Of a stretch of DNA of 64,000 nt, positions 31,432 through 60,501 are shown one piece after another. Position 1 is the first letter of the stretch. Each line of letters starts with the position of its first letter. The translations under genes and the position numbers were made by a program. The stretch comes from Sinorhizobium terangae (GTDB lineage Bacteria; Pseudomonadota; Alphaproteobacteria; Rhizobiales; Rhizobiaceae), in contig NZ_CP121659.1 of NCBI RefSeq assembly GCF_029714365.1, forward strand, positions 1,860,001-1,924,000. The letters are read 5' to 3'. The notes below the pieces were generated by a model, which worked only from the letters and a program-made list of their open reading frames with translations, was not told the DNA's origin and ran no database searches.

Positions 31432-33162
31432 TCACTCCGGCAGACCGGCCAGGCGATAACCGTCGATAAAATACCGCCTGAGCTCTTCATCCCGGAACGG
31501 TTGCGAATCCGACCACTGCCGTATCGTGAAGTTCGGGTTGTTCATCATGAAGAGCTGCGCCTCCGTCCGCGCATCATCCAGCCGCCCGAGCCGCGCCAGG
31601 CTTGCCGCAAGCAGGCGGCGCGAGGTCGCGCGGTAGGTTTCCGGGCGGCGCAATGTCTGGACCGCCGCCTCGTAGTCGCGGCTCGCATACTGGGCCTGAC
31701 CCAGCATCCAATAATACCAGCCAGGCGGGTGAGGATTGAGCCGGAGGGCCTTTCGGACGTGCTCGATGGCTTCGCCGGGCCGCCCGGCGAGCACGATCAG
31801 ATCCGACCGCATCGCCCAGGCGTCGGCATGGTTGGGATCGAGCCTCAGAGCAAGGTCGAACTCCGCATCCGATTCCTCCCAGCGGCGCTCATGGCCGAGG
31901 ATGATGCCGAGCACCCAGCGGTTGCCGGCGTCATTGGGGTCGAGCGCGACCGCTTTTTGCGCTTCCGCGACGGCTCGCGGCCGGTTGGGATCGATCGGCT
32001 GATCCCAGAATTCCCAGCTCAGCCAAAGGTTGAGCGCCAGCAGCCGATGGGCCTCCGCATAGTCCGGATCGCGTGCGATTACCCGCTGCAGCAGGAAGAT
32101 CGCCTCCCTTGCGGCGCCGGCCGTCTGCAGGCCGAGCGAACGCGCCCGGACGCAGAGATCATAGGCCTCCATGTCCGTCGGCCTGTTTCGCGCCGGCGTC
32201 GCCGTCAATCGCCCGACCAGCGCCTCGACGATCTTGCTCGTCACCTCGTCCTGGACGGCAAAAATGTCCTCGAGCCCGCGGTCGAACCTCTCCGCCCACA
32301 GGTGGTCCCCCTGCATGGCGTCGATCAACTGGGCATTGATGCGAACCCGCCCGGCGGCACGGCGTGCGCTGCCTTCCAACACGTAACGAACTCCAAGCTC
32401 GCGGGCAATGCGGCGCACATCCGTGTGCCTGCCCTTGTAGGCGAAAACGGAATTGCTGGCGATGACGAACAGGCCGCTGGCCCTGGAGAGGTCGGTGATC
32501 AGGTCTTCGGTCAAGCCGTCGACAAAAACCTCCTGCTCCGGATCGTTGCTCATGTTGGTGAATGGCAGGACGGCAATGGAAGGCTTGGTCGGCAGCGGCA
32601 ACGGCGCCTTCGCGGCGCCATGCTGGCCCCAGGCCGAAGTCTCGATGCGATAAACGGAAACCGGCTCGGCCACGTTCTTGATGGCGTGCGGGCCAAGGTC
32701 GTCAAATTCGCAGTAGAGCCGCCGGCGGACCTGATCATAGATGCTGCTGGAGACGAAGATCTCTCCCGGACCGGCCATTGCCTCGAGCCGCGCGGCTATG
32801 ATGACGCCGTCGCCGTAGAGATCGCCGCTCTCGACGACGACGTCGCCTAGGTTGATCCCAATTCTCAGAAGAATTTGCCGGTCGTCTGCAAGTCCCTCGT
32901 TTGCCGCCTGCATCCGCCGCTGGAATTCGATCGCACAGGTCACGGCGTTGACCGCGCTTGCGAACTCGACCAGCACTCCATCGCCCATCGTCTTGACGAC
33001 ACGGCCATTATTCTCGCGTACCAGCGGTTCCAGGATCTGCTTGCGGCGTTCCTTCAACGTTGCCAGCGTGCCGCTCTCGTCCAGTTCGACGAGGCGGCTG
33101 TAACCGACCACATCGGCAGCCATTATGGCGGCAAGACGCCGTTGGGCGCGTTCCTCAGCCAT
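31432..33162 (-). CDS. Class III adenylate/guanylate cyclase with TolB-like and TPR regions
   Basis: 576 aa. The N-terminal cyclase homology domain (about 8-175) keeps both metal Asp: IMAADVVGYSRLVELDESG and KTMGDGVLVEFASAVNAV, plus GINLGDVVVESGDLYGDGV. Then a FlgO/TolB-like segment (IAVLPFTNMSNDPEQEVF, about 195-310) and TPR-like repeats to the C-terminus. No membrane segment, so cytosolic. Would make cAMP (or cGMP) in response to a signal sensed by the C-terminal part. Rhizobia have many such cyclases. A paralogue is at 58549 and a fragment at 33936. Confidence 0.92.
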   Translation of the reverse strand: MAEERAQRRLAAIMAADVVGYSRLVELDESGTLATLKERRKQILEPLVRENNGRVVKTMGDGVLVEFASAVNAVTCAIEFQRRMQAANEGLADDRQILLRIGINLGDVVVESGDLYGDGVIIAARLEAMAGPGEIFVSSSIYDQVRRRLYCEFDDLGPHAIKNVAEPVSVYRIETSAWGQHGAAKAPLPLPTKPSIAVLPFTNMSNDPEQEVFVDGLTEDLITDLSRASGLFVIASNSVFAYKGRHTDVRRIARELGVRYVLEGSARRAAGRVRINAQLIDAMQGDHLWAERFDRGLEDIFAVQDEVTSKIVEALVGRLTATPARNRPTDMEAYDLCVRARSLGLQTAGAAREAIFLLQRVIARDPDYAEAHRLLALNLWLSWEFWDQPIDPNRPRAVAEAQKAVALDPNDAGNRWVLGIILGHERRWEESDAEFDLALRLDPNHADAWAMRSDLIVLAGRPGEAIEHVRKALRLNPHPPGWYYWMLGQAQYASRDYEAAVQTLRRPETYRATSRRLLAASLARLGRLDDARTEAQLFMMNNPNFTIRQWSDSQPFRDEELRRYFIDGYRLAGLPE

Positions 33163-33516: not shown

Positions 33517-33819
33517 CTACTTCACGGGGCCACGCGTGATGGACGTGAGTTCCCCGATCACGTCAAACGCCTTGATGCTCAACGTCGGGTCACCTTTCAT
33601 CTCCGCAATAATTGGCCCGTCGACGAAGGCTTGCACTGCGGCGTCATCGTCGAACAGGTAGATCCCGCCGGCTTCACTTTGGGCCTCATTAATGATCCAG
33701 ACCTTCCAGCGCAGGCCAGGTATGTCCGCGATGGGTTGAGCATAGGGCAGATTTTCTTTCTCGTACTCGGCCCTCGGTCCGTTGAGCTTGTAGTTGATTT
33801 GCAGAATTTTGGCCGACAT
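33517..33819 (-). CDS. YdhR-like putative monooxygenase
   Basis: 100 aa ferredoxin-fold (ABM-like) protein. Contains AKILQINYKLNGPRAEYEKE, GLRWKVWIINEAQSEAGGIY, LFDDDAAVQAFVDGPIIAE, matching the YdhR family in size and motif order. These proteins may oxidise aromatics without cofactor, though the activity is unproven. GGGGAGG precedes the ATG at 33819. Monocistronic, with cyclase fragments on both sides. Confidence 0.88.
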   Translation of the reverse strand: MSAKILQINYKLNGPRAEYEKENLPYAQPIADIPGLRWKVWIINEAQSEAGGIYLFDDDAAVQAFVDGPIIAEMKGDPTLSIKAFDVIGELTSITRGPVK

Positions 33820-33935
33820 GTCTTTCCTCCCCTATTCTCTGTAGCAGTAGGCGTTACACGATCACAAGCGACCCTCCGCGTCCCCTTGTTTGGCGCCCCT
33901 TCAAGATACCACCTCAAGCGGCATCGTGGCGAGGG

Positions 33936-34049
33936 TACATCGGCGTTCCACTTGCGCATCTTGCGTTGGATTTCCATTGCGCAGGCCACCGCGTTCACCA
34001 CGCTTGAGAACTCGACCAGCATTCCGTCGCCGGTGAGCTTGACATCCAC
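33936..34049 (-). pseudogene. Fragment of an adenylate cyclase catalytic domain
   Basis: VKLTGDGMLVEFSSVVNAVA then CAMEIQRKMRKWNADVP matches the second metal-binding segment of the cyclase domains at 31432 and 58549. Nothing recognisable of the domain remains before or after: upstream lies a mosaic repeat, downstream unrelated sequence. A relic of a third paralogue, or of a partial duplication, next to the intact cyclase. Confidence 0.8.
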
Positions 34050-34100
34050 CCCCCGCGCTCAAATTGGCCCGAACCAGCCCCTCTCGCCGACGGCCGTATT

Positions 34101-34148
34101 GCTGCATGTTTTTGCCCCTGAAATCGGACACGATTTAGGAAAGCATGC
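34101..34148. repeat. Rhizobial mosaic palindrome
   Basis: gctgcatgtttttgcccctgaaatcggacacgatttaggaaagcatgc: inverted repeat of the catgattt...aaatcatg class with a gap. It borders the upstream side of the moc locus, just before the LacI gene. Confidence 0.75.
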
Positions 34149-34172
34149 AAAGCCCATCCGAGGGACCAGAAT

Positions 34173-35174
34173 GTGAGCAAGCCGAATTACCAGGACATCG
34201 CCCGCCGGGCCGGAGTGGGAACCGCAACGGTCGAGCGGGTCCTGAACGGGCGCGGAGGCGTTCGCCCGGAACTGGTCGAGAAGGTCGTCGTTGCCGCGCG
34301 CACTTTGAACTACCCGCGCACGCTTCCCGACGCTCATCGGGGACTGCTGCGTATCGAAGTGCTGATGGTTCGCCCCGAGACCACTTTCTACCGACGGCTC
34401 TCCAAGGCGTTCGAGAGGATTGCCGCGACCCTCGATCCTCTGGTGATCGTCCACCGGAGCTTCACCGAAGAGATGAAGCCGGACGAGATCGCAAGGCGCA
34501 TCCTTTCCACCGACCTGCCGCGTGCCGGTCTGATCCTTGCGGTTCCCAACAGCCCGCTGATCAGTGCGGCCGTGGAAGCGGTGGTTGCGCGAGGGGTGCC
34601 GGTCGTCCATGTCGTAACCCGAGCATCCGAGAGCACGGGGGAATTCGTCGGAATTGACAATTACGCCGCCGGACGGACGGCGGCTCACTTCATAGCCCGC
34701 ATGGCGCGGGCAGAGGGCCCGGTCATTGGGCTGTGTCATCCGATCTATCAGGTGCACCGCGATCGTATCCGCGGGTTCTCGGACTACTTTCATGAACACC
34801 CCGGCCCCATCGCCTTTGAATGGCTCGGCTTCAGCCGCGACGAAGAGCACTACAGCGCGGAGTCATTGTCCCTTGCGCTTGAAATGTATCCGGATCTCGT
34901 CGGGCTTTATAACGCCGGAGGCGCAAACTCCGCTCTGATCCAGGTCCTGCGCCGTCATCGCCGGGGCCGGGACGTGTTGTTCGTCGGGCACGAATTGACC
35001 GACTACACCAGCACCGCCTTGCGAGAGGGCATCATGGACGTGGTGTTGGATCAGGCTCCCGAGGCGCAGGCCCAGCGTGCGCTCGATTTGATCCTGCGTC
35101 GCATCGGCTTGACTGCGATCGAGCCGGATCGCGCTCCCATTCGCTTCGTTACCATCACCGCCGAGGCGCTTTGA
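34173..35174 (+). CDS. LacI-family transcriptional regulator of the moc locus
   Basis: 333 aa. N-terminal LacI helix-turn-helix and hinge helix: YQDIARRAGVGTATVERVLN. The rest is a periplasmic-binding-protein-like effector domain (from about 60) with GVPVVHVVTRA, GIDNYAAGRTAAHFIARMA and GLYNAGGANSALIQVL. The recognition helix reads GTATVERVLNGRGGV, a variant of the more usual VSxVLN. GTG start at 34173 with AGGGA upstream. The sensor fold is the same type as in the downstream sugar-binding protein, so an inositol-like inducer is plausible (inference). Confidence 0.9.
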   Translation: MSKPNYQDIARRAGVGTATVERVLNGRGGVRPELVEKVVVAARTLNYPRTLPDAHRGLLRIEVLMVRPETTFYRRLSKAFERIAATLDPLVIVHRSFTEEMKPDEIARRILSTDLPRAGLILAVPNSPLISAAVEAVVARGVPVVHVVTRASESTGEFVGIDNYAAGRTAAHFIARMARAEGPVIGLCHPIYQVHRDRIRGFSDYFHEHPGPIAFEWLGFSRDEEHYSAESLSLALEMYPDLVGLYNAGGANSALIQVLRRHRRGRDVLFVGHELTDYTSTALREGIMDVVLDQAPEAQAQRALDLILRRIGLTAIEPDRAPIRFVTITAEAL

Positions 35175-35341
35175 TCTAATTTGATCAAGGAAGGTTTCGG
35201 TGTTCAGAAAGCCTCCTGATATTTGTCAAGTCAGGGAGGAGAGACGGAGCGTCGAAACGGAGCGACACCGGATCAGGCGCGCGACGCGCTCTCCTTTGAT
35301 CGAGAGAATCTGTGCGGGCGCGACCGCCCAGGGAGAGCGCA

Positions 35342-36376
35342 ATGGACGACCTACAATATGGAACGCGCAACAAGCGCGGCGACTGGGCGCCGAACCGGCC
35401 GGTCGAAACCGCGCCGCTGTTCGTCTTTCCGCCCCGGTTGATGGCAATTCTGAAGTGGCTGCCGCACTACTTCCTTCCCTGGAACGTGATCTTCGCGGCA
35501 TCGGCGGTGGCCTACTGGGCATGGGTGATTCCGACGATCAACACGATGCAGACTTTCGCCATCGGCTGGATCGCCTGGCTTTACGCCGTCAATGCGATTT
35601 GCGTGTTTTTCTTCTACGGCGCTTTCGAGCTTCATCTCTATGTCCTGAAGCGGCAGGAGAACCGCTTCAAGTACAACGGAAAGTTCCCGGCCGAGCAGAA
35701 GAGCAAGGCATTCTGGTTCGAGAGCCAGAGCGTCGACAATATTCTGCGCACGTTTCTCTCGGGCGTGACCGTCTGGACCGCGGTCGAAGTCGCCATGCTG
35801 TGGGCCTATGCCAACGGCTATGCGCCCTGGCTGAGCTTCACGGAAAATCCGTGGACGCTTGCCGTTGTCGCGCTGGTGGTGCCGATCATTCACGAGTTCC
35901 ACTTCTTCTGCATCCACCGGCTCATCCACACGCCCTTCCTCTACAAGAGGGTGCATTCGGTCCACCACAATTCGGTGAACCCCTCGCCCTGGTCTTCGCT
36001 GTCGATGCATCCGGTCGAGCACCTGCTCTACTTCGGAACGGCGTTCTATCACCTGATCCTGCCCTCCAACCCTATCCTCATGCTCTATCAGCTCCACTAT
36101 GCGGGCTTCGGAGCCATTCCCGGCCATGTCGGCTTCGACAAGGTCGAGATCGGGGAGGACAAGCTCATCGATAGCCATGCCTATGCGCACTACCTGCACC
36201 ACAAATACTTCGAGGTGAACTACGGCGACGCCCTGATCCCGCTCGATAAATGGTTCGGCACCTGGCACGACGGCTCTCCGGAAGGCGAAGCGCGGATGCA
36301 GGAACGCTATCGCAAGCGCAAGGAAAAACTCGCGGCCCGCAAGGCTCGCGTCGAATTCGGGGGAACCGCCCAATGA
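35342..36376 (+). CDS. mocD: MocD-like sterol desaturase/hydroxylase-family oxygenase
   Basis: 344 aa integral membrane di-iron oxygenase. Four to five hydrophobic segments and the His clusters of the fatty-acid hydroxylase superfamily: HEFHFFCIHRLIH (about 192-204), HSVHHNS with MHPVEH (about 212-235), and HYLHHKYFE (about 282-290). In rhizopine-degrading rhizobia MocD is the oxygenase proposed to act with the ferredoxin MocE and reductase MocF in O-demethylation of 3-O-methyl-scyllo-inosamine. All three occur here. ATG at 35342 with AGGGAGAG. It overlaps mocE by 4 bases. Confidence 0.85.
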   Translation: MDDLQYGTRNKRGDWAPNRPVETAPLFVFPPRLMAILKWLPHYFLPWNVIFAASAVAYWAWVIPTINTMQTFAIGWIAWLYAVNAICVFFFYGAFELHLYVLKRQENRFKYNGKFPAEQKSKAFWFESQSVDNILRTFLSGVTVWTAVEVAMLWAYANGYAPWLSFTENPWTLAVVALVVPIIHEFHFFCIHRLIHTPFLYKRVHSVHHNSVNPSPWSSLSMHPVEHLLYFGTAFYHLILPSNPILMLYQLHYAGFGAIPGHVGFDKVEIGEDKLIDSHAYAHYLHHKYFEVNYGDALIPLDKWFGTWHDGSPEGEARMQERYRKRKEKLAARKARVEFGGTAQ

Positions 36377-36684
36377 CCTGGATCTCTGCCTGCAAGCTTG
36401 ACGACATCGAACAGGAAGGAGCCATCCGCTTCGACCATGGCGGGCGCACCTACGCGATCTACCGCGGGCCAGACGACAGTGTCTACTGCACCGCCGGCCT
36501 CTGCACACACGAGGCGATCCATCTCGCCGACGGATTGGTGATGGATTTCGAGGTGGAATGTCCCAAGCATTCCGGCGCCTTCGATTATCGCACCGGCGAA
36601 GCGCTCAGGCTTCCCGCCTGCGAGAACCTGAAAACCTATCCGGCCGAGGTGGTGGACGGAGAAGTTCGCGTGGCCCTGGACTAG
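36373..36684 (+). CDS. mocE: MocE-like Rieske [2Fe-2S] ferredoxin
   Basis: 103 aa. The Rieske ligands are complete: CTHEAIHL (Cys, His) and CPKHSGAFDY (Cys, His) in residues about 43-67. Single-domain Rieske ferredoxin of the type that feeds electrons to oxygenases. The ATG overlaps the mocD stop (ATGA), so the two are translationally coupled, and the mocF-like reductase lies 1.2 kb downstream. Together they form a plausible electron chain from NAD(P)H through MocF and MocE to MocD. Confidence 0.9.
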   Translation: MTWISACKLDDIEQEGAIRFDHGGRTYAIYRGPDDSVYCTAGLCTHEAIHLADGLVMDFEVECPKHSGAFDYRTGEALRLPACENLKTYPAEVVDGEVRVALD

Positions 36685-36747
36685 AACGACCCGCTTTCAG
36701 GCGGAAATCGATAGAAGCGAATAAAACTCCATAAAATCAAACAGTTA

Positions 36748-36788
36748 GAGAGTTCTGCGTGTGTTCGTTCGAACGCACGGTGCTCTAA
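36748..36788. repeat. Mosaic-repeat palindrome inside the moc locus
   Basis: agagagttctgcgtgtgttcgttcgaacgcacggtgctct: inverted repeat around gtgttcgttcgaacgcac, matching the second half of the element at 57500-57545. It lies between mocE and the binding-protein gene and may alter the relative mRNA levels of the two parts. Confidence 0.7.
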
Positions 36789-36862
36789 GGCTGCGCGACA
36801 TTGGGCCCGATGGGCCTCCGGGATGCAACTGGGTGGTCCGGCACCCCCGAAGGGAGGATGAA

Positions 36863-37807
36863 ATGAAATCGACTGTTGCGGCGGCCGTTCTGGCTGCCTT
36901 GATGGCTGGTACCGCATCGGCCGAGACGATCGGCGTTTCGATGCAGAGTTTCGACAACAACTTCCAGACATTGCTGCGCCAGGGGCTCGACGCAAGGGCG
37001 TCCCAGGTGGGCGGGGTCACTCTCCAGATCGAGGATGCGCAGACCGACATCTCCAAGCAGATCAACCAGGTGAACAACTTCATCGCTGCGGGCGTGGATG
37101 GGATCATCATAACCCTGACGGACACCTCCGCCGCTCCCGGCATCAGCGAGGCGGCTCGGAAAGCTGGAATTCCCCTCGTCTACGTCAATCTCGAGCCGGA
37201 AAACATCGATAAGCTGCCGGAAAAGCAGGCTTATGTCGGTTCGAAGGAAATCGACTCCGGAAGGCTCGGTGCGGAGGCGGCCTGCGAACTGCTGAAAGAA
37301 ATGGGAAAGGCAGACGAGGCGCAGGTCTACATCTTAATGGGAGATCTGGCCCACCAGGCCTCGCGTGACCGTACGTCGTCGGTCAAGGAAACGCTGGCGG
37401 CAGGTGATTGCAAGGGCGTGACCATCGCCGACGAGCAGTCCGCCGCTTGGACGCGCACCAACGCGATGGATCTGACCACGAACTGGGTCACAGCCGGACA
37501 GCCGATCGATGTGATCTTTGCCAACAATGACGAGATGGCGATCGGCGCGATCCAGGCGCTCAAGGCCGCGGGCATGTCGATGGATGATGTGATCGTCGTC
37601 GGCATCGATGCGACGCAGGATGGCCTTGCCGCCATGGCCGCCGGTGATCTCGATGTGACGGTGTTCCAGAACGCCAGGGGACAGTCGGCGAGCGCCGTGG
37701 ATGCGGCCGTGGCGCTCGCTCGCGGCAAGAGCGTCGACAAGGAGGTCTGGGTGCCCTTCGAACTGGTCACGCCCAAGAACATGGCCGAATACGCCAAACA
37801 GAACTGA
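36863..37807 (+). CDS. mocB: MocB-like rhizopine/sugar-binding periplasmic protein
   Basis: 314 aa. Signal peptide to about residue 20 (ending ASA). Type I sugar-binding fold of the ribose/inositol group: ETIGVSMQSFDNNFQTLLRQ, VNNFIAAGVDGIIITLTD, PLVYVNLEPENID, then VDATQDxLAAM-type GIDATQDGLAAMAAGDLDVT and VFQNARGQSASAVDA. Resembles the rhizopine-binding protein MocB. AGGGAGG before the ATG at 36863. No ABC permease or ATPase gene is adjacent, so it must share a membrane complex encoded elsewhere or serve in sensing. Confidence 0.85.
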   Translation: MKSTVAAAVLAALMAGTASAETIGVSMQSFDNNFQTLLRQGLDARASQVGGVTLQIEDAQTDISKQINQVNNFIAAGVDGIIITLTDTSAAPGISEAARKAGIPLVYVNLEPENIDKLPEKQAYVGSKEIDSGRLGAEAACELLKEMGKADEAQVYILMGDLAHQASRDRTSSVKETLAAGDCKGVTIADEQSAAWTRTNAMDLTTNWVTAGQPIDVIFANNDEMAIGAIQALKAAGMSMDDVIVVGIDATQDGLAAMAAGDLDVTVFQNARGQSASAVDAAVALARGKSVDKEVWVPFELVTPKNMAEYAKQN

Positions 37808-37815
37808 TCCTCCCC

Positions 37816-37844
37816 GACCGGCGCCCCTGCTGGTTGCGCCGGTC
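37816..37844 (+). terminator. Strong hairpin between mocB and mocF
   Basis: gaccggcgc and gcgccggtc, perfect 9-base arms around an 11-base loop, starting 8 bases after the mocB stop and followed by ttctc. Hairpins in this position after binding-protein genes often stabilise the upstream message; partial termination is the alternative. mocF starts 20 bases later. Confidence 0.65.
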
Positions 37845-37864
37845 TTCTCACGATTGGAGAGCAC

Positions 37865-39070
37865 ATGGACGGTATCGTCATCATCGGTGCCGGGGAATGC
37901 GGCACCCGAGCAGCATTCGCCCTGCGAGAAGCGGGCTATTCCGGATCGGTCACGCTGGTCGGAGCCGAGCCTCACCTGCCCTATGAGCGCCCGCCGCTGT
38001 CGAAACCGGGAGACGGTGCGGTGCAGATGAAGCCGATCTGCGCAGCCGAAGCGCTGGCGGCGGCCGGCATCGACTATTTGCCCGGAGTGTCGGCCTCGAA
38101 ACTCGATGCCGACGCCGGAACCGTGACCTTAGGCGACGGGCGGGCGCTGAGGTATGAAAAGCTGCTTCTCGCCATAGGCGCGCGTCCGAGACGCCTGACA
38201 TGCCCGGGAGCGGACCACGCGCTCGATTTCCGCACCTATGCAGATGCGAAGATGGTTTTCTCCCATGCAGAAGCCGGCAGGCGCGTTGCGATCATTGGCG
38301 GCGGTTTGATCGGAATGGAGCTCGCGGCAGTCCTGCGTGGAAAAGGCATCGCCGTCAGCATTGTCGAAGCGGCACCGAAGCCGCTCGGACGTGCAGTTCC
38401 CGAGCGTTTTGCCGCAAAGCTGCATGCGAGGCATATGGACGAAGGCGTGCATTTCCACTTCGGACAGGGCGTTGCCGAAATCACGGATAACGCTGTTGTG
38501 CTCGCCGATGGCAGCGATGTGCCCGCCGACGTCGTCGTCGCGGCGATCGGCGTACTGCCCGATATCGCGCTGGCCGAGGCGGCAGGACTGGCAACCGGCA
38601 ACGGTGTCTTGGCGGACAGCTTTCTTCGTACCAGCGCCCCCGACATATTCGCTGCCGGCGATTGCGCGGCGGTGGCGCAACTAGGTGGCGGGCATGTTCG
38701 CTATGAAAGCTGGCGGAACGCAAGGACGCAGGCCGAAACCGCAGCGCGAAACATGGCCGGTGCAGCCGAGACCTTTGCCGCTATCCCGTGGTTCTGGTCC
38801 GACCAGTACGATCTTGGCTTGCAGGTAGCGGGGCTGCCGCAGCCAGCGCATCAGCGCGTCGTGCGCTCAGCCGCGGCCGGCGAACTCGAGTTCTATCTGG
38901 ACGATGGACGCCTCGTGGCTGCGGCGGGCCTCGGCTTCGGCAACAGCCTGGCCAAGGAGATCAAACTGGCTGAGATGTTGATTGCCGCAGGCGTCAGCCC
39001 CGACCCCGTGGCATTGGCCGACCCTGGCTTGAACCTCAAGACGCTTCTGAAAAGCCCGCGGGCGGCCTGA
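37865..39070 (+). CDS. mocF: MocF-like FAD/NAD-dependent ferredoxin reductase
   Basis: 401 aa. FAD-binding N-terminus IVIIGAGECGTRAAFAL, NAD-binding motif RVAIIGGGLIGMELAAVL near residue 140, and the second FAD motif DIFAAGDCAAVAQLG near 260. C-terminal reductase domain with PWFWSDQYDLGLQVAGLP, typical of ferredoxin reductases of Rieske oxygenase systems. Would move electrons from NAD(P)H to MocE. Fourth structural gene of the rightward moc group. Ends just before a convergent terminator-like hairpin. Confidence 0.9.
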   Translation: MDGIVIIGAGECGTRAAFALREAGYSGSVTLVGAEPHLPYERPPLSKPGDGAVQMKPICAAEALAAAGIDYLPGVSASKLDADAGTVTLGDGRALRYEKLLLAIGARPRRLTCPGADHALDFRTYADAKMVFSHAEAGRRVAIIGGGLIGMELAAVLRGKGIAVSIVEAAPKPLGRAVPERFAAKLHARHMDEGVHFHFGQGVAEITDNAVVLADGSDVPADVVVAAIGVLPDIALAEAAGLATGNGVLADSFLRTSAPDIFAAGDCAAVAQLGGGHVRYESWRNARTQAETAARNMAGAAETFAAIPWFWSDQYDLGLQVAGLPQPAHQRVVRSAAAGELEFYLDDGRLVAAAGLGFGNSLAKEIKLAEMLIAAGVSPDPVALADPGLNLKTLLKSPRAA

Positions 39071-39094
39071 TGCCCCTGAAGTTTCGAAACACTT

Positions 39095-39124
39095 GAGCTT
39101 GTCTTTCGTCTCAAGGGCAAGCTC
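39095..39124. terminator. Hairpin between convergent mocF and DUF2182 genes
   Basis: gagcttg and caagctc arms, with a nested cttgag/ctcaag pair, so alternative stems are possible. It lies between two convergent stops and overlaps the last bases of the leftward gene. No clear U-run. Confidence 0.45.
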
Positions 39125-39953
39125 ACACCAACTCCAGGAAGCGAAGCGGCGTCTCCCCCACCAGCACGGCCGCGCCCCATACGATTAGTGCTACGCCGAT
39201 AAGCTTGCCGAGCCGAGAGCCCATCGGAAGGACCTTTTCCAGCACAACGAATGTCATGAGACCCACCATCCAGAAGAGATTCATGACGCCGCCGAAGAAC
39301 AGGAGCCCCATCAGGAACCAGCAGCAGGCGACGCAATAAGCACCTTGCTCGATTCCCATGCGGAACGCTCCGGTCGTTCCCCCGCGCCAATGGGTGAGGA
39401 TGAAATGCAGCGGAGAGCGACACTGGCGCAGGCAAGCTCGCTTGAGCGGGGTCAGTTGGTAAATACCCGCTGCCAGCAACAGCGTGCCGTCGAGCGTCGC
39501 GCTTGCACTATCCAGCATCGGCGACAATAGCGCCGAACGCTCCAGGCCCCACTGCAAACCGACTGCCACAACGCTGAAGCCCGCCCAGGCAATCAGGTAG
39601 GCTGAGGCAAAGAGCGAGGTTGGGACAAAGGGATTGCCCTTTTCCTTTTGCCGGCGGCTCATCGCCCCGAACAGAAGCACCGCGGGTGCCGTCGAGGGGA
39701 GCATCATGGCGGCCATCATCACCCACCACATGATGAACATCAGCGCGGCGTGGCTCATGTCCCAGACGGCGGGCGTCATCATCGGCATGCCTGCTCTGCC
39801 CGGGGTGACGCAGATCGTCCCGAGGGCTGACACACCCATGCCCGCCCCGGCCAGAACATATGTCCACGCGATCACAACGACGGTGGAAAGTGCAGTGAGG
39901 ACAACAATCCTGTCGCGCTTGAACGCGCTCTCGACGGCGGCATCGATCGACAT
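39123..39953 (-). CDS. DUF2182 membrane protein
   Basis: 276 aa, about seven hydrophobic segments. Conserved parts: MFIMWWVMMAAMMLPSTAPA (Met-rich helix), LLLAAGIYQLTPLKRACLRQ, CRSPLHFILTHWR and GIEQGAYCVACCWFLM, all typical of DUF2182, a predicted metal-binding integral membrane family. The Met- and Cys-rich helices suggest handling of a soft metal such as copper (inference). Second gene of a two-gene operon, 24 bases after DUF1326. Confidence 0.88.
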   Translation of the reverse strand: MSIDAAVESAFKRDRIVVLTALSTVVVIAWTYVLAGAGMGVSALGTICVTPGRAGMPMMTPAVWDMSHAALMFIMWWVMMAAMMLPSTAPAVLLFGAMSRRQKEKGNPFVPTSLFASAYLIAWAGFSVVAVGLQWGLERSALLSPMLDSASATLDGTLLLAAGIYQLTPLKRACLRQCRSPLHFILTHWRGGTTGAFRMGIEQGAYCVACCWFLMGLLFFGGVMNLFWMVGLMTFVVLEKVLPMGSRLGKLIGVALIVWGAAVLVGETPLRFLELV

Positions 39954-39977
39954 CTCTTTATGCCCTTTGGCTCGATA

Positions 39978-40643
39978 CTATCCGAGCCATGCCGTGAGCC
40001 TTGATCTTTCCCGGACCAGGCCATCCTGATTGAAGTGGTGAACGCAAAAATCGGCCCATGAATCTTCGAACGCCATTTCCATATCACCGGTGACCGTGGT
40101 CGTGCCGAGCCCGAGTTCCGCGTAGGTGAACTCGAAGCTGCCGCTCGGCCGTGCCAGCGCGATGTGGAACGGCTCGCCCGTGAACTCGTTGATTTTCGGG
40201 CTGGCGCTGCTCGTCAAGACGCCCGGGATCCTGACCTTCGCGGTTCGGGCATCGAAGTCCGCCTTGAGATCGATCGGCAGGAACAACGTTTCGCAAAAAT
40301 CGGAACAGGTGCTGGCGAAGACTGCGAAGAGATTGCTCAAGGGCGGGCAGGCCCCGCCCGAGATAATCGTTTCAAGCGCGATCCGTTGGGCCTTGTCCGC
40401 ACGCTCGTCGATGATGATCTGACGCCGGCCGTTTCCGTCCTTGATTTCACCGGGCCACTTGTAGAGCGCCGCCCAGGTCAGGCCCGCTAGCGGCGTGTCG
40501 TTGAAGTGGCCTTCAACGATGTTGCCGGTGTAGGCGGACTGGCAATAGCCATGTGTACTTGGCAAATTGAACTGGCAGCCGCAATTCATGGCGCAATTGC
40601 AGTTATCGTAGGTTTCGCTCTTGAATACCCATTGGTCTCCCAT
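39978..40643 (-). CDS. DUF1326 protein
   Basis: 221 aa soluble protein. The N-terminus has the family's Cys cluster YDNCNCAMNCGCQFNLPS, plus ACPPLSNLFAVFASTCSDFC in the middle. DUF1326 genes are regularly paired with DUF2182 genes, as here, which argues that the two proteins work together, possibly as soluble and membrane parts of one metal-related complex. Start ATG at 40643, with GGAG-like sequence upstream. Function unknown. Confidence 0.88.
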   Translation of the reverse strand: MGDQWVFKSETYDNCNCAMNCGCQFNLPSTHGYCQSAYTGNIVEGHFNDTPLAGLTWAALYKWPGEIKDGNGRRQIIIDERADKAQRIALETIISGGACPPLSNLFAVFASTCSDFCETLFLPIDLKADFDARTAKVRIPGVLTSSASPKINEFTGEPFHIALARPSGSFEFTYAELGLGTTTVTGDMEMAFEDSWADFCVHHFNQDGLVRERSRLTAWLG

Positions 40644-58300: not shown

Positions 58301-58552
58301 TCAGAGCACCATGAACGGGGAACCTGTCGAACGGCCGTCGAACACTGCAAACAGGCGCTCGTGGATTGACAGCCTACCCATCGATCGCACGCTGGTTGCA
58401 ACAGACCGATAACAGTCGCCCGTAAACCGCAAGCGGTTATTTCGGGAACGAATCTGGAGCAAGAAAAAGCTGCTCTCCCGCCAGCCGAACTCAATGTTGG
58501 CAATTTGCGCGTAGCGGGAAGTGCGCTCACGACGGCAAATGGTACCGATCAT
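58301..58552 (-). CDS. Possible small gene coupled to the cyclase gene
   Basis: 83 codons. The ATG at 58552 overlaps the cyclase stop (ATGA). Protein: FGWRESSFFLLQIRSRNNRL, then FTGDCYRSVATSVRSMGRLS and IHERLFAVFDGRSTGSPF. Third-position base use is less biased than in surrounding genes and no family is recognised, so it may be a chance frame in a decayed tail. Confidence 0.35.
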   Translation of the reverse strand: MIGTICRRERTSRYAQIANIEFGWRESSFFLLQIRSRNNRLRFTGDCYRSVATSVRSMGRLSIHERLFAVFDGRSTGSPFMVL

Positions 58553-60297
58553 GGAGGCAGCGGCAGCTTCCCGAGAGCGTTCGCCAGCGATTGTATCGAC
58601 GCGGGTCGAAAAGGCCCCATTCGGGTGAAGCCGCCGATCGTGAACGATGGCGCGATCTCGACAAGGCGCTTTGCAGCCTCTCCTGCCGCCTCGAAATTGT
58701 TCAACTCGACCTGTGCCGCCGCGAAGTAGGCATAGGCGACGCTGAAGTTCGGGTTCGCTCCGACAGCAAGCGCCGCATAGGTGGCGGCCTCCCCGAAGCG
58801 GCCGCTGAACCAGTGGGCCAGCGTTAGCGCACAGTAAGGATGATAATTCAGGGGATCGAACGGGCTGAGCCTCAGCGCAAGCAGTGCATGCTCGATGGCT
58901 CTTTCGTTTCGCTCGCTATGGGCATTTACCAGGGCACTGAAGCCGTATGCGAGGGCCGAATTGTGATTGAGCTCCAGCGCCCGATCCAGAACGATAATGG
59001 CCGCGTCGTAGTCATGCGTGAAATTGGACTTGACAAAGGCGGCGATGCTTAGGGCCTGCGGATCATCGACACCAAGGTTGAGCGCGGCATTGCAGTGTTC
59101 CAACGCAAGAGTTTTATCCCGTTCGTCAAATCCACAGCGGAAGTAACTTTGCTCATGGCACCACGCCGCATAGGCATGTGCCAGCGCATAGTTCGGGTCG
59201 CGCTTCAGGGCGGCCTCCAAAAGCAGCAGCGCTTTTTGCGTTTCAGCCGGCGAATTCGCATAGGTGTGCGGGAGTGCTTTCAAATAGAGGTCGTATGCGT
59301 CCAGTGCATCCGGCCGTTTTCGCAGCGCACGTTCAATTTCGGCTCGGCGTATCGACGGTTCCAGCGCACCGACGATGCTGGTCACGAAACGGTCTTGAAG
59401 ATCGAACAAGTCCTCGGCGAAGCCCTCGAGCCTATCTGCCCATACGTGCGTCGCACCCGTCCCCTCCAAAAGCTGTCCCGTGATGCGGATTCGGTTGGCG
59501 GATTGTCGGACACTGCCTTCGAGCACGTAGCGTACGCCCAATTCCCGAGCGACCTGCTTCACGTCAACAGGCCTTCCTTTGTAGAAATAGCTCGAGTTGC
59601 GCGCGATCACGAAGAGGCTGGGAATCTTGGCCAGTTCCGTGATGAGATCCTCGACCAGGCCGTCGGCAAAATAGTCTTGCTGCGGATCGCCGCTCATGTT
59701 TTCGAACGGCAACACTGCGATCGACGGTCGTTTCGGCAGGGCAAGGGGCGTGTCGATCAGGTTGGTTGCATCCGGCGTCTGCGCCTCCAGATGAAGCTGA
59801 TAGACGCGGATCGGCCGCGTGATGTTCTTGAGGTACTGGTCTCCAGTGTCTTCGAAGGTGATGTCCAGCCGTTCCCGGACAAGATCGCGCACAGCGGCCG
59901 ATACGGCGATTCCGCCTGGCCGTGCAATCCCCTCCAGCCTCGACGCGACGTTCACGCCGTCGCCGAAGATGTCGCCATTCTCCAAGATGACGTCTCCCAA
60001 ATTAATGCCGATCCGGAACTCAATGCGGTGATCCGGCGGAATTGGGTCATTTCGAATGATCATCGCGCGCTGTATGTCGACAGCACAGGCTACCGCTTCC
60101 AAAACACTTTGAAACTCGGCGAGAATGCCATCGCCGATGAGCTTTACGACCCGGCCGTTGTGCTCTGCAATCTTCGGGTTCAAGAGCTCGCTCTGGTGGG
60201 CCACCAACGAGCGGAGCGTCGTGGATTCGTCGGCCTCCATGAGCCGACTGAAGCTAACGACGTCAGCGGCGAGGATCGCTGCCAGTCTGCGGTCCAT
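58549..60297 (-). CDS. Class III adenylate/guanylate cyclase with TolB-like and TPR regions
   Basis: 582 aa. Cyclase domain: LAAILAADVVSFSRLMEADE and VVKLIGDGILAEFQSVLEAV keep both metal Asp; GINLGDVILENGDIFGDGVN follows. Then a TolB-like block IAVLPFENMSGDPQQDYFAD and TPR repeats (for instance EAALKRDPNYALAHAYAAWC). Ends FTIGGFTRMGPFR, as does the paralogue at 31432 in a similar form. AGGAGGG before the ATG at 60297. Cytosolic, would convert ATP to cAMP under unknown control. Confidence 0.92.
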   Translation of the reverse strand: MDRRLAAILAADVVSFSRLMEADESTTLRSLVAHQSELLNPKIAEHNGRVVKLIGDGILAEFQSVLEAVACAVDIQRAMIIRNDPIPPDHRIEFRIGINLGDVILENGDIFGDGVNVASRLEGIARPGGIAVSAAVRDLVRERLDITFEDTGDQYLKNITRPIRVYQLHLEAQTPDATNLIDTPLALPKRPSIAVLPFENMSGDPQQDYFADGLVEDLITELAKIPSLFVIARNSSYFYKGRPVDVKQVARELGVRYVLEGSVRQSANRIRITGQLLEGTGATHVWADRLEGFAEDLFDLQDRFVTSIVGALEPSIRRAEIERALRKRPDALDAYDLYLKALPHTYANSPAETQKALLLLEAALKRDPNYALAHAYAAWCHEQSYFRCGFDERDKTLALEHCNAALNLGVDDPQALSIAAFVKSNFTHDYDAAIIVLDRALELNHNSALAYGFSALVNAHSERNERAIEHALLALRLSPFDPLNYHPYCALTLAHWFSGRFGEAATYAALAVGANPNFSVAYAYFAAAQVELNNFEAAGEAAKRLVEIAPSFTIGGFTRMGPFRPASIQSLANALGKLPLPP

Positions 60298-60501
60298 AGA
60301 CGCCCTCCTACGGATTGCATCAAGCAGCATGCCATAGAATTCAGTTAAGGCATTCAAAATCCGCTCTTTGCGTGTCTGGGCGCTGCAAAAGTGACCGCTT
60401 CAGGTGCATCCGGGCGAACGCCGGCGACCGCACTTGTTCCAAGGCGGTCGCCTCTGTTTGCAATAGAGCGTCCTCTCTGGCGGGCGAGACCCGACGAAGC
60501 G

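Follow-up and report, generated by a model that had tools for sequence, protein, structure and literature searches.

The 64,000-nucleotide stretch of Sinorhizobium terangae analyzed here (the window; positions 1860001-1924000 of contig C1 in a three-contig genome of 6.63 Mb whose contigs include C1 and C2) contains, between positions 34173 and 39070, five open, complete and co-directional reading frames. They encode a LacI-family regulator, a membrane di-iron oxygenase, a Rieske ferredoxin, a periplasmic binding protein, and a ferredoxin reductase (Table 1). With a probability of roughly 0.68, we propose that these genes form a LacI-controlled O-demethylase operon for a plant methyl-inositol of the pinitol, ononitol or sequoyitol class, the substrate being what we infer, and that this operon feeds the iol pathway. 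An earlier note, made from the sequence alone, had described the locus as rhizopine-like, with the gene names lacI, mocD, mocE, mocB, and mocF. The arrangement it gave, five co-directional genes led by a LacI regulator instead of MocR, was borne out by the intact frames and by the PF00356 domain, and the ATGA overlap is real, as the ferredoxin gene starts at 36373 and the oxygenase gene ends at 36376.

Table 1. Features of the operon and their positions in the window.
Feature	Position	Strand	Remarks
lacI, LacI-family regulator with Peripla_BP_4 sensor domain	34173..35174	+	GTG start; PF00356 + PF13407; upstream orthologue in 30 of 35 close relatives
Predicted LacI operator, TTGATC-TAATTT-GATCAA	35171..35188		overlaps lacI stop codon; 153 bp 5' of oxygenase start
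Membrane di-iron oxygenase, FA_hydroxylase / sterol-desaturase family	35342..36376	+	PF04116, 73.1 bits (cut-off 31); proposed methyl-inositol O-demethylase
Rieske ferredoxin, MocE family	36373..36684	+	TIGR02377 over cut-off; ATGA overlap with oxygenase
Periplasmic binding protein, clade close to IbpA-like inositol-type binders	36863..37807	+	Peripla_BP_4; Leu for Arg at pocket position
FAD/NAD(P)H ferredoxin reductase, BphA4/TodA type	37865..39070	+	Pyr_redox_2 PF07992 + Reductase_C PF14759

PF04116 was the only Pfam domain assigned to the oxygenase. The complete His clusters that the earlier note had pointed out (HRLIH, HSVHH, and HYLHH) are all three present and do not vary across a 40-sequence alignment that includes the window protein; together with the PF04116 score, they place the protein in the FA_hydroxylase superfamily. 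The ferredoxin scored 191.8 bits against the MocE family model TIGR02377 (cut-off 136.15) and is by this measure a member of that family. Among the named PDB relatives of the reductase are the ferredoxin reductases of biphenyl and toluene dioxygenase as well as putidaredoxin reductase. The ferredoxin and the reductase belong to the same families as those of the three-component aromatic dioxygenase chains (HcaCD, BphA3/A4, AndAb/Aa). However, the scores against the HcaC, HcaD, AndAa, and AndAb models all remained below cut-off, and the terminal oxygenase is a membrane di-iron enzyme here, whereas it is a Rieske non-heme iron enzyme in the aromatic chains.

The genome collection contains at least 588 confirmed oxygenase relatives, and the surroundings (within about 8 kb) of the best 80 were scored by tblastn using seed proteins. 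According to oxygenase identity, these loci were grouped as close (≥80%, n = 35), mid-distance (64-79%, n = 33), and distant (<64%, n = 12). In the close group the ferredoxin is complete at all 35 loci and the reductase is full-length in 31 and partial in one; LacI is full-length in 33, of which 30 are orthologous while the other three are a 42-43% paralogue placed downstream. The binding protein occurs in 25 close relatives in full length (plus two partial), a TIM-barrel protein in 28 (plus one partial), and an ATPase together with a permease in one. This recurrence of the partner genes indicates that their grouping is more than chance. At three of the 35 loci, the sequence to the right is shorter than 5.5 kb; for one of them, L067, this explains missing genes. 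At the mid-distance loci, LacI (23), the binding protein (19 full, one partial), a PF02548-like gene (23), and an ATPase (4) were found. The distant loci encode the ferredoxin in eight cases, another type of binding protein plus permease in nine, a PF02548-like protein in seven, and IolG-like dehydrogenases in five; the window-type binding protein occurs among them only once, in partial form. Whole or decayed, the locus is present in many members of the genera Rhizobium, Sinorhizobium, and Shinella as well as in Paracoccus yeei, and all five proteins of S. terangae USDA4894 (L049) are 100% identical to those of the window.

None of the immediate neighbors of the five-gene operon is mocA, mocC, or a gene for an ATPase or permease; the adjoining genes belong to other families, just as the earlier note had stated. 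That note had also suggested that the locus might depend on genes elsewhere and had proposed to search the genome for an orphan inositol ABC permease and ATPase; such a dependence is supported by the genome. On C2, an IbpA-like binding protein is encoded together with an ATPase, a permease, and a TIM-barrel protein, and C1 carries iolC, iolD, and iolE at 3.95 Mb and iolG at 2.58 Mb, each scoring over its NCBIfam cut-off. Of the components of the myo-inositol ABC importer IbpA-IatA-IatP (names used in Caulobacter and S. meliloti), ATPase and permease accompany the C2 paralogue, whereas the window operon is devoid of both. Nine stretches around IbpA-type binding proteins were inspected, four of which contain IbpA, ATPase, and permease together, and iolC lies within three of these four. 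In L162, L163, and L164, the importer has iolC next to it; each of the three also has Gfo/Idh genes and a further binding protein, and L162 has iolD. In L165-L169, the seed search showed no importer and only one binding protein each, belonging to other clades. The proximity of iolC and Gfo/Idh genes ties the importer to inositol.

In several genomes the importer is in turn linked to oxygenase operons. An operon whose oxygenase belongs to PF00487 is joined to the importer in L170, and in L193 and L194 a single island of ~18 kb comprises three modules. The first, reading one way, encodes a PF02548-like protein (detected only in L193, since the L194 sequence stops short of it), a reductase, MocE, and a PF00487 oxygenase. 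The second, reading the other way, encodes LacI, an IolI-like TIM-barrel protein, IbpA, ATPase, permease, and a Gfo/Idh dehydrogenase. The third, a convergent module, encodes a formaldehyde dehydrogenase, a TIM-barrel protein, reductase, binding protein, MocE, a PF04116 oxygenase, and LacI. The formaldehyde dehydrogenase scored 723 bits against the S-(hydroxymethyl)glutathione dehydrogenase model TIGR02818 (cut-off 544). In L076, the importer, a Gfo/Idh gene, the PF04116 operon, a TIM-barrel gene, and a formaldehyde dehydrogenase gene follow one another in a row. The combination to be expected of a methyl-inositol demethylase system, in which genes for inositol import and for a Gfo/Idh dehydrogenase are joined by one for removing formaldehyde, is therefore linked in L193, L194, and L076. 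In the window genome the modules are dispersed, the operon lying on C1 and the importer and a PF00487 operon on C2, about 150 kb apart. The suggestion of the earlier note that the locus might act on another methoxy-inositol draws support from this island of importer and operon in relatives. On a plasmid of R. leguminosarum, a more distant oxygenase is accompanied by a PF00487 oxygenase, a Gfo/Idh dehydrogenase, and annotated iolE and iolD. Among 394 genomes of the family, 18 encode the oxygenase at ≥86% identity, and an IbpA-like protein (E ≤1e-117) occurs in all 18 of them compared to 84 of the 376 others.

The palindrome TTGATC-N6-GATCAA is located 5' of the oxygenase gene in 29 of the 35 close relatives, in 27 cases directly behind the orthologous lacI and in two (L054, L075) without that lacI. 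A further 16 of the 33 mid-distance loci and one of the 12 distant loci carry it at the end of lacI. Within the window alone, the number of motif matches at three mismatches was not above chance, and the case for an operator hence rests on its conservation across relatives. The sequence TTGATCTNATNNGATCAA has a single exact match in the 6.63 Mb genome, at the operator, and one further site at one mismatch; the unique exact match indicates that there is probably one regulator with one target. Three loci, L030 (Rhizobium sp. CIAT894), L054, and L075, have retained the palindrome while the orthologous lacI is missing from the fetched stretch. The oxygenase leader also contains CCTGATATTTGTCAAGTCAGG followed by GAGGAGA (35215-35235), which is partly conserved (21 of 35 relatives; 36 upstream regions were counted, minus L049 as a duplicate of the window). 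A hairpin formed by the CCTG...CAGG repeat in this leader was considered and rejected as not convincing: 14 of the 35 regions have no such motif, and a Watson-Crick inner pair occurs in 12 of the 21 others (13 with G-T).

The binding protein of the operon is 57% identical to the IbpA-like protein encoded on C2 of the same genome. The binding proteins of the demethylase-type operons form one clade (45 rows, support 100/99), and the window protein lies outside the IbpA clade. At position 92 (galactose-binding-protein numbering; Leu110 of the window protein), the operon clade has Leu or Ile and at position 152 His, whereas the 32 rows of the IbpA clade have Arg and Asn, respectively. The window protein and IbpA have residues 91 (Asn), 158 (Arg), 183 (Trp), 211 (Asn), and 236 (Asp) in common and differ by Leu for Arg 92, His for Asn 152, and Asn for Asp 14. 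Its structural neighbors include the Caulobacter myo-inositol-binding protein (4irx); myo-inositol is presumably also the ligand in 4yo7. A third IbpA-like clade of five rows (L143, L162, L164, L165, and L166) has His at position 92, and some of its members adjoin iol genes and a complete importer; this clade possibly serves another cyclitol.

The window genome has a second operon of related design at 1581.0-1586.8 kb of C2 (L033), which encodes a PF00487 oxygenase, a MocE-family ferredoxin (186.4 bits), a reductase, a PF02548 protein resembling ketopantoate hydroxymethyltransferase, and PurU, with a divergent lacI. Its oxygenase is 80% identical to an R. etli IE4803 protein annotated as 'hydrocarbon oxygenase MocD-like', and it is this annotation, not the original MocD sequence, on which the assignment of MocD to PF00487 rests. 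Both operons have the same electron chain (MocE 57%, reductase 50% identical) and a LacI regulator, and in L170, L193, and L194 the PF00487 operon, too, is linked to the IbpA-type importer. However, no BLASTP similarity was detected between the two oxygenases of the genome, and the PF00487 operon differs further in its PF02548 and PurU-type one-carbon genes and its divergent lacI. The recurrence of the PF02548-like gene at the mid-distance loci suggests an as yet undescribed one-carbon step after demethylation. We give even odds to the view that a sterol-desaturase-type enzyme has independently come to fill the role of the desaturase-type enzyme of MocDEF, so that two non-homologous oxygenases served by the same ferredoxin/reductase pair flank one inositol importer within an island for methyl-inositol use, under LacI control and with a dedicated, IbpA-related binding protein in which the change from Arg to Leu leaves room for a methyl group.

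Gene content, protein families, importer linkage, operator conservation, and clade-specific pocket residues are established; the following route is what they would allow. The binding protein would take up periplasmic methyl-inositol and hand it to the IbpA-type ATPase and permease encoded on C2, the operon having no permease of its own. The membrane di-iron oxygenase would receive electrons from NAD(P)H by way of the FAD-containing reductase and the MocE-type Rieske ferredoxin. Judging from family chemistry, it would hydroxylate the O-methyl carbon, and the resulting hemiacetal would release formaldehyde and free inositol. The inositol would then be oxidized by IolG or another Gfo/Idh dehydrogenase and enter the iol pathway encoded elsewhere, while formaldehyde would be removed by a class III formaldehyde dehydrogenase of the kind encoded beside or inside the operon in some relatives. 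LacI, whose sensor has the binding-protein fold, would repress from 35171-35188 until released by substrate or product. Many loci have retained oxygenase and ferredoxin but not the binding protein, so that methyl-inositols may also be carried by the IbpA-like protein. No TIM-barrel gene is present in the window clade (L049, L051), and a search of the window genome, run without a positive control, gave no match; 3' of the window reductase no credible remnant was found (best E 1.2). The corresponding protein of the relatives had no PDB, Pfam or NCBIfam match and is annotated in the records only, as sugar phosphate isomerase/epimerase or TIM barrel protein. Its loss in the window clade could reflect either myo-inositol as the product or isomerization by the IolI-like protein of C2. 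Pinitol and ononitol, both methylated inositols, are among the most abundant soluble compounds of many legumes and nodules. To our knowledge, no rhizobial route for opening methylated inositols has been assigned. For such a route, candidates can now be named for the enzyme, the electron chain, the binding protein, the regulator, and the operator, with the importer and the downstream genes indicated.

The function given to the locus by the earlier note, catabolism of the rhizopine 3-O-methyl-scyllo-inosamine with the oxygenase as a functional MocD and the binding protein as MocB, has to be weighed against this proposal. Rhizopine operons are reportedly arranged as mocCABRDE(F) in Rhizobium leguminosarum bv. 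viciae and as mocABRC in S. meliloti L5-30. The locus shares with them a di-iron oxygenase, a MocE-type ferredoxin passing its family cut-off, a reductase, and a sugar-type binding protein, in an oxygenase-ferredoxin-reductase order that resembles mocDEF, and with a methylated inositol derivative as the likely substrate in both systems. However, the binding protein scored 39.1 bits against the rhizopine model NF052284 (cut-off 420) and thus falls outside the rhizopine family, and no protein of the whole window genome exceeded that cut-off (best 68.5 bits), so the name mocB had to be dropped. The name mocD was given up likewise, as MocD-like proteins belong to PF00487 and the oxygenase to PF04116. 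The regulator is LacI in place of MocR, mocA and mocC do not adjoin, and the importer is encoded elsewhere. In seven of the 394 family genomes, a protein passes the rhizopine binding-protein cut-off. Around ten matches to this model (seven over cut-off, three below), stretches of 13-20 kb contained no homologue of MocE, PF04116 or PF00487 proteins at E 1e-6; in several of them, GntR/MocR-like neighbors were recognized by eye from N-terminal sequences and Gfo/Idh- and IolE-like matches by seed search. The locus is also spread more widely than rhizopine use is known to be. We therefore rejected membership in the rhizopine system, on NF052284, MocR, mocA/mocC, and PF00487 MocD alike, and regard a rhizopine function as highly improbable; a MocE-family ferredoxin in an operon is by itself no ground for the name 'rhizopine catabolism'.

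Demethylation of a methoxylated sugar or polyol other than a methyl-inositol, such as a methyl-hexose or part of a mycosporine, would agree with a binding-protein fold that is common to glucose, ribose, and inositol binders, with MglB as the best generic NCBIfam match (143.6 bits, cut-off 420), and with the Gfo/Idh protein of the island, which scored best against the levoglucosan dehydrogenase model (296 of 650, far under its cut-off). We consider it unlikely, since the importer is linked to iolC, distant oxygenase operons adjoin genes for IolG-like dehydrogenases, iolE and iolD, and co-occurrence with IbpA is seen genome-wide. Enzymes of PF04116 commonly act on lipids, and the family includes lipid C-hydroxylases and desaturases. 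The oxygenase might accordingly hydroxylate or desaturate a cyclitol or lipid without being a demethylase, in which case the formaldehyde dehydrogenase near a minority of operons (3 of 35) would be incidental. Against this stand the recurrent one-carbon genes, among them the TIGR02818 formaldehyde dehydrogenase, the PF02548 gene resembling hydroxymethyltransferases that 23 of the 33 mid-distance operons carry, and the genes for PurU and a PF02548-like protein that accompany the PF00487 oxygenase, and we judge such an activity to be rather improbable.

Several further observations weigh against methyl-inositol demethylation. The formaldehyde dehydrogenase gene is absent from the window operon itself, and of the 33 mid-distance loci only 23 have the ferredoxin, and three the reductase, in the roughly 8 kb covered. 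Against the IolG model (cut-off 355), the Gfo/Idh protein of the island scored 131 and the one encoded next to the iol cluster of the window genome 125. Among the structural neighbors of the binding protein, 4irx ranks only 50th by Z, beneath glucose- and ribose-binding proteins, and the change to Leu/Ile at position 92 is shared by descent and counts as one event. The co-occurrence of oxygenase and IbpA (Fisher test, 8e-12) is not corrected for phylogeny, and of 43 genomes with the oxygenase at E ≤1e-100, 33 have IbpA and 10 have none. For the oxygenase, neither its sequence (best E 0.093) nor a fold search with its model (no match at E <0.001, uninformative by itself) retrieved a relative from the PDB. 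Finally, 10 of the 35 close relatives have no complete binding protein: eight lack it, and two, one of them at a contig end, have part of it. Its gene is broken into two frames in L029 and L030 and persists as a remnant in S. meliloti 1021, indicating that the system can do without it.

The operon is decaying in several lineages (S. meliloti 1021 pSymA, L048; L029; L030; L077; L070). S. meliloti 1021 has kept lacI, oxygenase, and ferredoxin, while reductase and TIM-barrel genes were unmatched in the fetched stretch; L077 and L070 have internal deletions in the operon.

An Rfam scan of 33900-39200 gave no match at E up to 1, and promoter and terminator scans stayed at chance level. The operon is flanked downstream by genes for PpoB2, a DUF1326 protein, and an HxlR regulator and upstream by a YdhR-like gene and a cyclase-TPR gene. 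The gene for PpoB2 (PF09948, 'copper chaperone') and its paired DUF1326 gene occupy 39123-40643 on the minus strand, convergent and directly 3' of the operon, to which the pair is, as far as seen, unrelated. Just 5' of lacI, a cyclase-like fragment recognized by eye (33597-34049, minus strand) overlaps the YdhR-like gene (33517-33819). The window contains two cyclase-TPR genes (PF00211 + TPR), at 31432-33162 and 58549-60357.

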